The notes below the pieces were generated by a model. It searched no databases, was not told where the DNA came from, and worked only from the letters and a program-made list of their open reading frames with translations. A DNA stretch of 27,879 bases, from IMG/VR virus record IMGVR_UViG_3300037521_000054, positions 1 through 27,879 of that record; one strand, 5' to 3'. The stretch's first letter is position 1; each line of letters begins with the position of its first letter. Positions 21,874 through 25,276 of this stretch are shown here, piece by piece. Both the position numbers and the translations under genes were made by a program. The stretch comes from a virus.

Positions 21874-22218
21874 TTATCTGTCCTGGTCTATATATTCCTT
21901 TCCTGGCTCGCCACTCTCATCTAGCTTGCACTGAGCCATGTTTACGTCTGGCGCATAGCCAGCGGCAATGTTCTCTTCCTGCTGCGTAACTTCAATGTAC
22001 TTGTCGCAGGCATGTTTAATCTTTTCAAGGTCATCGAGCAAATGGCGACCCTCCGGACCTTTCTTCCTAAAGATCCACTTTGATATAATATACTGGAAGC
22101 AATTAAAGCGGAAGGCCCAAGCAATATCCCAATGCTCAAGAACACTATTACAATGGGGACACTTAGCCTTGACCTTGTAATGTTCACCTCCCACCTGCCT
22201 TTCGTTTGCACGTTCCAT
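21874..22218 (-). CDS. DUF3310-like small protein
   Basis: 114 residues. The motif VGGEHYK (residues 9-15), then a helix-rich body (NCFQYIISKWIFRKKG, then HLLDDLEKIKHACDKYI) reproduces the DUF3310/SaV-like pattern 'GG.HY ... n..KYi.R...K....dDL.Ka..Y'. It differs by an inserted CPHC (20-23) between motif and helices, a possible zinc knuckle with C40 or H29. The family is widespread in phages, often beside nucleotide-metabolism genes; its biochemical role is not established. AAGGAG precedes the ATG ten bases away. It is the last gene of the early operon. Confidence 0.8.
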   Translation of the reverse strand: MERANERQVGGEHYKVKAKCPHCNSVLEHWDIAWAFRFNCFQYIISKWIFRKKGPEGRHLLDDLEKIKHACDKYIEVTQQEENIAAGYAPDVNMAQCKLDESGEPGKEYIDQDR

Positions 22219-22523: not shown

Positions 22524-23492
22524 CTAGTTCAATTTTTTCCTTTCAATGCGCCTAGTTTCCCAGTCCCAGCAGGCACGATGCCAGTCTGAAGCTACTATCT
22601 CTTCAATATAATCATACCTGTTAGCTCGGTCTAAGTAGGCCATCTTAATAGGCCATGCGACGTGTTGTATCCATGGACATTGGAATACTTCCTCCCCATC
22701 AAGTAAGCGAACACAGTCCTCCATAAACTCAACGTGAGTGCATTGTTCTAGCAAGGACATATGCGCTTCAACCATTCCCTTCCCCTTGTACATGTCTACG
22801 TCCAGCGTTGTTTTGATAATATCCTCATACCGGGGGACAGTGGTGTAGATATGGCAGTTATTACTGAACACATGATACAGCCCTAACTTGAACCCGGCAG
22901 CGGAAGCTATAAGCTCCTGTAGCATTGTCATATGGACTACATTAGCTCCTAGCATACCCCAGATAAAGTCATTGCTTCGGTTACATACTGTCATGTTAAG
23001 GCTGTCAGTTTCATCGACTCTAAAGTAAATGTGAGTATTACACGGCCTGTCACTGGTTCTTGCATTAGGTCCATCATATACTGTGTCCCACATGGACAAG
23101 ACAGCTTGGCGACTGCTGGGGTCTTTACGCAGCAGGTCAATGATTTGTGGGATTTGGAATACCGGATTGGCCCATCTCCATCCATATGCTCCACGTAAAA
23201 TTCCATCATCAGCGTACTCCATCATTCGTTGGTTAAATTGACTTATCCAGGAAGCGTCGTTACTGCCTGCCATCATCCAGACAAACTCCATACAGTGGAA
23301 GAACGGGTTAACCCTTCTAACAGGGCAATTGAGCAGACGCTCCTCGGGAAATTGTATGGTTAGGAACACCGGAGCTGGCATAACCATCGCTGGTCCGTTC
23401 CTGGTATGTTCCATTAGGGAGCATACCCGAAATATTTGCAGTCCTTCCACGTAAGCTTGAGGCGCGTTTCGCCCTGTTATTTCTATAATCAC
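22524..23492 (-). CDS. Thymidylate-synthase-family protein, candidate dUMP hydroxymethylase
   Basis: 322 residues of the ThyA fold, which transfers a one-carbon unit from methylene-tetrahydrofolate to C5 of dUMP; hydroxymethylases of the same family make 5-hmdUMP or 5-hmdCMP. Visible motifs: E69 in CMEFVWMMAG (ThyA ELLWFL), YGWRW (103-107; ThyA YG..WR), DPSSRQAVLSMWD (124-136), the nucleophile C151 in RPCNTH, RSND (172-175) for phosphate, N184 in LGANVVHM, and H214/Y216 in CHIYTT. N184 favours uracil, since dCMP enzymes carry Asp. Oddly, the His that normally follows the catalytic Cys is Asn152. The start is GTG 23492 with AAGGGG upstream. Placed beside the next two genes, it probably supplies a modified pyrimidine, but an ordinary thymidylate synthase cannot be excluded. 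Confidence 0.85.
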   Translation of the reverse strand: MIIEITGRNAPQAYVEGLQIFRVCSLMEHTRNGPAMVMPAPVFLTIQFPEERLLNCPVRRVNPFFHCMEFVWMMAGSNDASWISQFNQRMMEYADDGILRGAYGWRWANPVFQIPQIIDLLRKDPSSRQAVLSMWDTVYDGPNARTSDRPCNTHIYFRVDETDSLNMTVCNRSNDFIWGMLGANVVHMTMLQELIASAAGFKLGLYHVFSNNCHIYTTVPRYEDIIKTTLDVDMYKGKGMVEAHMSLLEQCTHVEFMEDCVRLLDGEEVFQCPWIQHVAWPIKMAYLDRANRYDYIEEIVASDWHRACWDWETRRIERKKLN

Positions 23493-23510
23493 GCGTGTAA
23501 CCCCTTGTTA

Positions 23511-23519
23511 TGTATAGCA
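23511..23519 (-). promoter_or_regulatory. Weak extended -10 candidate in the 129-base gap before the TS-family gene
   Basis: On the complement the gap 23493-23621 contains TG-C-TATACA (23519-23511), an extended -10 with 4 of 6 matches and no good -35. Nothing else is seen in this gap: no terminator hairpin and no open frame with a ribosome binding site. Confidence 0.3.
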
Positions 23520-23621
23520 TTTTAGTGTAAGCCCGTCTACTGGCTGAATAACAAGGCAATAGCTAGGCATTGCCCGGTATGTGATTTAGCGTCGAGCGGC
23601 GTCTGGTGCAGCCATTTTAGC

Positions 23622-24488
23622 TCAATAGGCAGCATAACCCCGCTTACTCCGGCCAGTACCCGTTAAGACGCGGCAATACTTGTCATACTCGCATAGGCAG
23701 TTCTGCATATCTTGCATACACATTGTGAAGTATGGTTCGCCTAAGCGGTTTTCAATATAGCTCTTAACTTCTTCTATAGCTTCCTGGTAATTAGAAGGGG
23801 TGATCTTACGTTCATGAAACCATGACAGCCCACGGAGACTTCCTGGTCCTGGCGCACTGAAGTACATCCAATCTGTTGCCGCTTCTAGTGGGTGGCCTTT
23901 CGTATTTTTAAGGTCTGCCACAATCTGGGCGCAGAGGAAGCTACCCAGACCATCAACACGTTTGAACCAATGCCAGTAGTCTAGGCAGTTAGGCTGGCAA
24001 GAAGCAGGAGTGATGTCTATTACTTTCTGTAGTAACTCTACACAGTAGTCTATCTTAGACATCTTACGGCCATGCGTGGTAATGAGGTAAGCCCCTCCCC
24101 ATATCTTTTCTTTTTGTGCCTGTAGGTCAGTTAAGACCTGCCACAGTTTCAAGTGGGGGGAAGGTACTATACTGAACTGTATGGTTTCTAGCGTCGGGGG
24201 CCAGTTAAATAGACGCGCCGCGACAATAGCAGTTTCATAGTGCTCTCCGAAGAGATCCGGAGTATAGTTTTTCCTGATCCATCGCGTAACACGATCGTCT
24301 TCCCTGTGAACGTTGCAGAAATACGTCCACTGGAATACCTGATCTTCGCTCCATGGTCGCTTATCACCACGTTCCTTTTTAACACGTATTCTCTCCCGTT
24401 CAGATATCCAATAGGCCAGCAGCTCCGGCCTTGTATAAGGCTTTCCATTGACCTCTAAAATCGACTCGCTTTCCTCCCAACCATCCAT
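23622..24488 (-). CDS. 5-hmdU DNA kinase helical-domain protein (aGPT-Pplase-like)
   Basis: 288 residues. Three motifs match, as I recall it, the helical domain of 5-hydroxymethyl-dU DNA kinases, first predicted as 'alpha-glutamyl/putrescinyl thymine pyrophosphorylases': FCNVHREDDRVTRWI (57-71), a helix-hairpin-helix-like GLGSFLCAQIVADL (180-193), and DWMYFSAPGPGSLRGL (206-221). In thymidine-hypermodifying phages such proteins phosphorylate 5-hmdU in DNA so that a further group can be attached. No Walker A (GxxxxGKS/T) is seen in the whole protein, so if it acts as a kinase the P-loop part must be elsewhere, or this domain binds or processes the base in another way. Strong AAGGAG; the start lies 89 bases inside the preceding gene. 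Confidence 0.75.
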   Translation of the reverse strand: MDGWEESESILEVNGKPYTRPELLAYWISERERIRVKKERGDKRPWSEDQVFQWTYFCNVHREDDRVTRWIRKNYTPDLFGEHYETAIVAARLFNWPPTLETIQFSIVPSPHLKLWQVLTDLQAQKEKIWGGAYLITTHGRKMSKIDYCVELLQKVIDITPASCQPNCLDYWHWFKRVDGLGSFLCAQIVADLKNTKGHPLEAATDWMYFSAPGPGSLRGLSWFHERKITPSNYQEAIEEVKSYIENRLGEPYFTMCMQDMQNCLCEYDKYCRVLTGTGRSKRGYAAY

Positions 24489-25224
24489 CTTTAGACTCCT
24501 TCTCTACGGCTTTGATGTAAGGGCCGAAGCGTTCTTCTAACCAGTAGCAAGCTTCGGCTTGCATTTCAGGTGTTCGGTATAAGCTGCATCCTCCGGGGGC
24601 ATTACAACTCCCCCAGTCTTGAAAAATAGTAGTGATTATTTTATTCCCCTGCCCTCGGGCTAATAGGGTCGCATTAAGTACCACGTCAGAAAGAATAGGG
24701 AACTTAGCAATATCAGGGATGGTCCCCACCAAACGGCGATTAAGACCCTGAACACAAATAACTTTCCCGTTAATGTTGTAGGGAGGTTTCTGAACATGCC
24801 CCATCTGCCGGGGATGAATTCCAACGAGCGCGGTGTCTTCAAGTAAGTTCTCCAGTAAAGCGAATGGCCCCAGGAGGATTTCAGTGTCTGCCCCGGTTAA
24901 GGTCTTAAGACCAATCTTACCATCATCCTTGATGTACTGGCGACTGAATACTAAGTCATCATCAAGTATAACGCAGCATTCCTCTCCATCATCCATACCG
25001 TCCTGTAGGATCCATTGCATCTTCTGGCTATAGTTAGTGACAGTGTAGGGGACGGGAATAGTTGGGATGCGTTTACCGAAGTCATCATCCCCACCAAGAG
25101 TGTAGTGTTCGTTATGCTCTGTCGGTGGTACTACAAGGAAGCATTTGTCCCGCCAAGACCACGGTATAGATTCGTACGTGCGTTGAGCGCCGATGCGCCC
25201 TCGGGTCATTATGTATAAGTTCAT
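24400..25224 (-). CDS. GT-A-type glycosyltransferase-like protein
   Basis: 274 residues from ATG 25224 (GGGGAAAG upstream; an in-frame TTG at 25239 lacks one). The opening LYIMTRGRIGAQRTYES is the 'i.tRGR...q.T...' start of a GT-A nucleotide-sugar transferase domain, strands follow (CFLVVPP; KRIPTIPVPY), and CCVILDDDLVF places a DDD (88-90) at the metal- and nucleotide-sugar-binding DxD site. The later FPILSDVVLNATLLARG and IFQDWGSCNAPGGCSLYRT segments complete a fold I associate with TET/JBP-associated glycosyltransferases of phages. The neighbouring hmdU-type genes suggest a hydroxymethylated base in DNA as acceptor. Donor and acceptor are unknown. The 3' end overlaps the next gene by 89 bases. 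Confidence 0.68.
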   Translation of the reverse strand: MNLYIMTRGRIGAQRTYESIPWSWRDKCFLVVPPTEHNEHYTLGGDDDFGKRIPTIPVPYTVTNYSQKMQWILQDGMDDGEECCVILDDDLVFSRQYIKDDGKIGLKTLTGADTEILLGPFALLENLLEDTALVGIHPRQMGHVQKPPYNINGKVICVQGLNRRLVGTIPDIAKFPILSDVVLNATLLARGQGNKIITTIFQDWGSCNAPGGCSLYRTPEMQAEACYWLEERFGPYIKAVEKESKDGWLGGKRVDFRGQWKALYKAGAAGLLDI

Positions 25225-25235
25225 AATCTTTCCCC

Positions 25236-25276
25236 ACAAACAAAACGAGCTCCGATCACAAAAGTAACCGGAGCTC
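25236..25276 (-). terminator. Intrinsic terminator after the small basic protein gene
   Basis: On the complement, GAGCTCCG (25276-25269) pairs perfectly with CGGAGCTC (25254-25247) over a 14-base loop, followed by GTTTTGTTTG. It ends the short transcript of the 25283-25606 gene and precedes the ribosome binding site of the glycosyltransferase-like gene, which would be reached by read-through. Confidence 0.8.

Follow-up and report, generated by a model that had tools for sequence, protein, structure and literature searches.

A phage gene cassette that pairs HMUDK_hel with a glycosyltransferase instead of a kinase, and its predicted product, glycosylated 5-hydroxymethyl-deoxyuridine

Results

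A three-gene cassette on the minus strand

We analyzed the IMG/VR viral record IMGVR_UViG_3300037521_000054 of an uncultured phage (hereafter the window: the whole stretch of 27,879 bp, classed as linear and probably a fragment). Its minus strand holds three adjacent, complete open reading frames (ORFs), which encode a glycosyltransferase (GT), an HMUDK_hel protein and an enzyme of the thymidylate synthase (TS) family. A first-pass annotation had proposed these genes as a locus for thymine hypermodification. The features are as follows.

24400..25224, minus strand: GT-A-type GT, similar to TET-associated glycosyltransferases (TAGT) and phrog_842; ATG start, with an alternative upstream TTG start at 25239
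23622..24488, minus strand: HMUDK_hel (aGPT-Pplase1) protein without a kinase domain, proposed base-handling subunit; PF18723
24400..24488, minus strand: overlap of the GT and HMUDK_hel genes, 89 nt; same overlap in the relatives checked
22524..23492, minus strand: TS-family pyrimidine hydroxymethylase, predicted to be specific for deoxyuridine monophosphate (dUMP); GTG start; phrog_5131, PF00303

The three genes proved to be real, and the trio recurs with identical order and setting in 9 further viral contigs at protein identities of 67-95%, the cassette being intact in 9/9 close relatives found. Ratios of nonsynonymous to synonymous substitution rates (dN/dS) against six relatives were 0.06-0.10 for the GT, 0.12-0.18 for HMUDK_hel and 0.07-0.10 for the TS, one saturated TS comparison being omitted; all three genes are under purifying selection. 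An AAGGAG ribosome-binding site precedes HMUDK_hel, and the overlap of this gene with that of the GT suggests that the two are translationally coupled. A blastn search of the window against phage records gave zero matches.

Family assignments of the three proteins

Profile searches upheld the three families that the first-pass annotation had named and did not place any of the proteins in unrelated ones. The TS matched PF00303 (E 1.3e-19) and phrog_5131 (E 2e-78), and its best tblastn matches were MW202897 and M6-like phages, at ~35% identity across 97% of the protein; it is 35% identical to M6 gp58. Its residues include the catalytic C151, the substrate-binding R172 and S173, and Asn184 at the uracil-reading site, which aligns, by way of solved structures, with the Asp of the cytidine monophosphate (CMP) hydroxymethylase MilA. 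In enzymes of the TS type, Asp at this site goes with a cytosine substrate and Asn with a uracil substrate (PMC5175136). From the family and the active-site residues we infer that the window TS acts on dUMP, and its likeness to M6 gp58, together with the partner genes, points to transfer of a hydroxymethyl rather than a methyl group. The uracil-type Asn was present in 147/150 readable TS of the class that carries a GT-A enzyme.

The GT matched phrog_842 (beta-glucosyl-HMC-alpha-glucosyltransferase, E 3.7e-16) and had no match in Pfam, where the TAGT model (PF20691) was not reached; its relatives scored 12-17 bits against PF20691, under the cut-off. The window GT is 27% identical (E 2e-18) to gp40 of the cultured Brevibacterium phage LuckyBarnes, which is itself a PF20691 TAGT (E 1e-14), and on these similarities it appears to join the TAGT family through intermediates such as gp40. 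An acidic DDD motif (DDD93-95, DxD-type) is conserved, and an AlphaFold model (pLDDT 89) found GT-A enzymes, namely COLGALT1, KfiA and GnTI, as its best fold matches in the PDB. The comparison with TET-associated glycosyltransferases that the first-pass annotation had called for gave a family link via LuckyBarnes gp40, but the Pfam model is not reached and the association with TET probably does not apply, because 5-hydroxymethyl-deoxyuridine (hmdU) would here come from the TS-type enzyme. No Pfam match to a 2-oxoglutarate (2OG)-Fe(II) oxygenase was seen among those proteins of the window and its relatives that were scanned, which were part of the genes.

The middle gene matched PF18723 (HMUDK_hel) at E 1.6e-34 and 120 bits (cut-off 25). 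Its product is a homologue of M6 gp55 (PF18723) rather than of gp54 (PF18748), the P-loop kinase of that phage; the product has no P-loop, the kinase domain being a separate gene in M6. Among 34 HMUDK_hel proteins accompanied by a GT-A enzyme, a GT-B enzyme or a kinase, 23 positions were invariant, so that the role of HMUDK_hel itself seems independent of its partner. Its AlphaFold model (pLDDT 91) is all-helical and matched the HMUDK_hel proteins of PhiW-14, Lucky3 and SP10, followed by the amino acid:DNA transferase (ADDT; E 9e-5), while a fold search of the PDB returned none at E<=0.001. Sequence searches of the PDB with HMUDK_hel and the GT gave nothing meaningful. The alignments for structure prediction were built from IMG/VR rows. 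We infer that HMUDK_hel is a DNA- or base-handling subunit, and its true role is probably more general than its kinase-derived name.

Neither the 5-hmdU DNA kinase nor ADDT accompanies the glycosyltransferase

A search with PF18748, the 5-hmdU P-loop kinase, found none in the window record and its relatives, of which the longest is 40.9 kb, and matched M6 in the same search; M6 gp54 used as a query had no match in the relatives. A kinase hidden in the window was considered and ruled out by these two results, the first covering window and relatives and the second the relatives only. Likewise, ADDT (PF18724) was found in none of the window and relatives and was found in M6, Epa5, phiA8-29 and others. 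Neither PF18748 nor ADDT was present in LuckyBarnes or in the Microbacterium phages Mercedes and Luna18, all complete genomes, and neither was found in full-length searches of 20 further contigs of the GT class (31-99 kb), where the ADDT run had no internal positive control, ADDT having been detected in other records by a separate search. In LuckyBarnes, the genes for a TS, two TAGT enzymes and HMUDK_hel follow one another. Conversely, both kinase and ADDT are present in M6, Epa5, phiA8-29, VPALA, RHph_TM26, Pam3 and Simon, none of which has a TAGT match that reaches the cut-off; for Epa5 and Simon the kinase match, too, is below threshold.

The first-pass annotation had placed a DNA-level kinase step in the middle protein, and this was not supported: the protein is M6 gp55-like, not gp54-like, and its check against hmdU-kinase profiles came out positive for HMUDK_hel (PF18723) and negative for the P-loop kinase. 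The annotation had also let the GT take the place of the amino-acid/PLP enzymes; the replacement stands, but its scope was too narrow. Because PF18748 and M6 gp54 were unmatched and the middle protein is HMUDK_hel, the GT, judged by gene content, takes the place of both the kinase and ADDT.

M6 gp54 and its homologues, the 5-hmdU DNA kinase, commonly carry the label 'terminase small subunit' in public records, for example at L005:5707-6270, where PF18748 indicates a kinase.

HMUDK_hel occurs with a glycosyltransferase or a kinase, not with both

We surveyed the partners of HMUDK_hel across phages by scanning IMG/VR with HMUDK_hel profiles and a GT profile, and by adding phage records. The combined set comprised 277 HMUDK_hel loci, and after removal of duplicates these formed 114 clusters at 70% identity. 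Within 8 kb and on the same strand, a GT was found in 52 clusters, a kinase in 39 and both in 0 (Fisher P 1.4e-14, a value that ignores relatedness among the clusters). When the limits on distance and strand were lifted, the counts were 52, 41 and 0, and among clusters reached by the HMUDK_hel-only scans they were 25, 32 and 0, with neither partner in 20. ADDT was present in 28/39 kinase clusters versus 0/52 GT clusters. The GT was of the GT-A type in 41 of the 52 and of the GT-B type in 13, 2 having both; a TS was present in 51/52, the commonest gene orders were GT-HMUDK_hel-TS (25 clusters) and HMUDK_hel-GT-TS (20), and the GT lay <=60 nt from HMUDK_hel in 37/51. Of the new loci found by the GT profile, 73/78 had HMUDK_hel, and in 3 of the remaining 5 the GT was at a contig edge.

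When 113 HMUDK_hel representatives were placed on a quickly built maximum-likelihood tree, which has many weak branches, the label had to change between kinase and GT at least 15 times, and the two classes are clearly interleaved. Both kinds of partner also occur fused to HMUDK_hel. A single 837-aa protein at locus L061 consists of a GT-B domain (PF00534, 211-410) and HMUDK_hel (518-798, E 1e-85), with a TS four bases downstream; a search for more such fusions gave only an identical protein on a second contig. In SBSphiC, a single chain of 636 aa carries the kinase PF18748 (35-193) and HMUDK_hel (312-597), and the next long ORF is a TS. The B. subtilis host of SBSphiC and its matching 636-aa protein led us to treat it as SP10-like; the 637-aa 5-hmdU DNA kinase of SP10 had surfaced in the HMUDK_hel fold search. 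These fusions indicate that HMUDK_hel is physically joined to either type of partner in nature.

Several loci depart from the common arrangement. A third class, with a GT-B-type glycosyltransferase beside HMUDK_hel and TS, is seen at L066, L074, L084, L086, L117 and L124, and an FkbM methyltransferase (L096) and radical SAM proteins (L093, L059) near HMUDK_hel in GT-B-type loci hint at further decoration. Other P-loop kinases adjoin HMUDK_hel in Lucky3 (PF18751 Ploopntkinase3, L043:1353-1958) and at L063 (PF18747 HMUD2, L063:8000-8842). At L098:9968-11700 a tandem pair of HMUDK_hel genes has a TAGT gene and a TS as neighbours.

Discussion

A predicted route to glycosylated hmdU

We propose that the cassette probably makes glycosylated 5-hydroxymethyl-deoxyuridine, a base-J-like modification, in phage DNA. 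The TS-family enzyme would hydroxymethylate dUMP to hydroxymethyl-dUMP (hmdUMP), which host kinases or unseen phage kinases would convert to the triphosphate (hmdUTP), and a family-A DNA polymerase, such as the one seen in a close relative of the window phage, would insert hmdU for part or all of the thymine. The GT-A enzyme would then move a sugar from a nucleotide-sugar onto the 5-hydroxymethyl group of hmdU, helped by HMUDK_hel, which would bind DNA and offer the flipped hmdU to the enzyme, as it would to the P-loop kinase in M6- and SP10-like phages. In duplex DNA, T4 beta-GT adds glucose to 5-hydroxymethyluracil (5hmU) only if this base is mispaired with G (PMC4111573), a limit that would explain a helper for hmdU:A pairs. 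The glycosylated 5-hmdU that the first-pass annotation had suggested is supported as the likely, predicted outcome, and so is the assignment of the locus to thymine hypermodification. A broader proposal, on which we are evenly divided, is that HMUDK_hel is a general module for presenting hmdU DNA with exchangeable partners (P-loop kinase, GT-A, GT-B), and that a large unrecognised set of phages, the window phage included, carries glycosyl-5-hmdU via the GT branch.

Several observations weigh against the proposed route to glycosylated hmdU. Neither the window contig nor its relatives are complete, and a kinase may therefore lie elsewhere in that genome. In 23/114 clusters, e.g. L095, L113 and L062, neither GT nor kinase was recognised, the partner perhaps having been missed. 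The circular record MW202897 has a GT and an Asn-type TS with no detectable HMUDK_hel, which shows that some systems do without the helper. In Microbacterium phages and relatives with HMUDK_hel (L043, L049, L054, L077, L109), the TS has Asp instead of Asn, which suggests 5-hydroxymethylcytosine (hmC) rather than hmdU; with HMUDK_hel and TAGT beside an Asp-type TS, HMUDK_hel may not be strictly tied to hmdU or uracil. Finally, the HMUDK_hel model gave weak matches to endonuclease III (probability 0.98, TM about 0.4) and to the queuosine glycosylase DUF2419 (probability 0.77), leaving kinship to base-flipping helix-hairpin-helix DNA glycosylases plausible but weak.

Alternative explanations

HMUDK_hel might itself modify the acceptor, as is implied by pyrophosphorylase, its older name, with the GT transferring to, or exchanging with, its product and not acting on hmdU directly. 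Its invariant polar residues (D49, N59, R62, D65, D192, E267, D269, K270, Y271 and R273) resemble a catalytic site more than a scaffold, and the model's resemblance to ADDT points the same way; however, these residues are kept with either partner, which is just as compatible with a shared binding role, a nucleotide-binding motif was not recognised, and MW202897 has a GT alone with an Asn-type TS. We consider this explanation unlikely. A classical route, with the kinase and amino-acid transferase encoded outside the contig and the GT decorating a later intermediate or acting elsewhere, is in keeping with the window being only a 27.9-kb fragment and with M6-type pathways combining HMUDK_hel with kinase and ADDT. 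It is nevertheless quite improbable, given that both enzymes are missing from relatives of up to 40.9 kb, the complete genomes and the 20 further contigs, that a GT and a kinase did not occur together in any of the 114 clusters, and that the neighbour of HMUDK_hel is a kinase in M6-like phages and a GT here.

Glycosylation of hmC, as in T-even phages, would require that the hydroxymethylase make hydroxymethyl-deoxycytidine monophosphate (hmdCMP) and that HMUDK_hel help on cytosine. The GT family is named for the T2/T6 enzyme, the authors of the LuckyBarnes genome named its enzyme a deoxycytidine monophosphate (dCMP) hydroxymethylase, and an Asp-type TS accompanies HMUDK_hel and TAGT in the Microbacterium phages. 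The uracil-type Asn184 and its prevalence in the GT-A class argue otherwise, as does the closeness of the window TS to enzymes of M6-like phages, which have hmdU-derived bases (PMC6449724), and we regard this route as very improbable. The view that the genes are coincidental neighbours, with a TS that is an ordinary thymidylate synthase and a GT that modifies the cell surface or a protein, draws on the fact that sequence cannot by itself separate TS from hydroxymethylase with certainty; it is strongly disfavoured, since the cassette is kept in unrelated phages (LuckyBarnes, Microbacterium phages and dozens of metagenomic lineages), a TS accompanies nearly every GT cluster and a natural GT-HMUDK_hel fusion exists.

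Relation to known systems

The preferred pathway, glycosylation of hmdU with the help of HMUDK_hel, shares with thymidine hypermodification in Pseudomonas phage M6 (gp51-gp58), Salmonella phage ViI and Delftia phage PhiW-14 a dUMP-hydroxymethylase-type TS, HMUDK_hel and a modification, predicted in our case, on hmdU in DNA; unlike these phages, the window has no detected PF18748 kinase or ADDT, and a GT stands in the kinase's place. The 5-hmdU DNA kinase of Bacillus phage SP10 and SBSphiC likewise joins HMUDK_hel to a catalytic partner next to a TS, but there the partner is a kinase in one chain, whereas it is a separate GT-A enzyme in the window and a fused GT-B in L061. With the T2/T6 beta-glucosyl-HMC-alpha-glucosyltransferase and the TAGTs (PF20691, phrog_842) the window has in common a GT-A superfamily enzyme beside a pyrimidine hydroxymethylase; known members act on hmC derivatives, whereas the window has a uracil-type TS, HMUDK_hel and a GT under the Pfam cut-off. 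The predicted product is the same kind of base as kinetoplastid base J, a sugar on hmdU, but kinetoplastids make hmdU on DNA by JBP oxygenases, and in the window a TS-type enzyme is predicted to form it at the level of the free nucleotide.

The same three kinds of gene (TS, aG/PT-PPlase1 and a putative GT) have been described in one region in pelagiphages (PMC9599517); the passages of that paper on this cluster mention the trio in passing and propose no GT-for-kinase swap, exclusivity or product. As of 2019, glucosylated 5hmdU was stated not to have been reported in phages (PMC6449724). Parts of our interpretation may be anticipated in the main literature on thymidine-hypermodification pathways.

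If the proposal is correct, many phages would sugar-coat thymine as T-even phages do cytosine, HMUDK_hel/aGPT-Pplase1 would gain a function, its present name would misdirect the annotation of many genomes of one large class, and the cassettes would provide enzymes for labelling 5-hmdU. The pathway step that changes would be glycosylation instead of phosphorylation, with no kinase, and the wider interest lies in the repetition of this swap of partners across phages. The question is testable, since the cultured phage LuckyBarnes carries the same cassette.

Genomic setting and host

The plus strand of the window carries structural genes. On the minus strand the trio is preceded, in order, by genes for a PD-(D/E)XK nuclease, a VRR-NUC protein, an SNF2 helicase and a small unknown protein, and one further gene lies downstream of the TS and is kept in relatives.

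21874-22218 of the window, minus strand: zinc-ribbon-like small protein, phrog_5839 (function unassigned)

A host search in genome contigs returned one contig of a metagenome-assembled genome (MAG) only, at 27% identity. A contig binned to a Patescibacteria MAG (L291) carries HMUDK_hel, GT and TS and possibly belongs to a phage of Patescibacteria.

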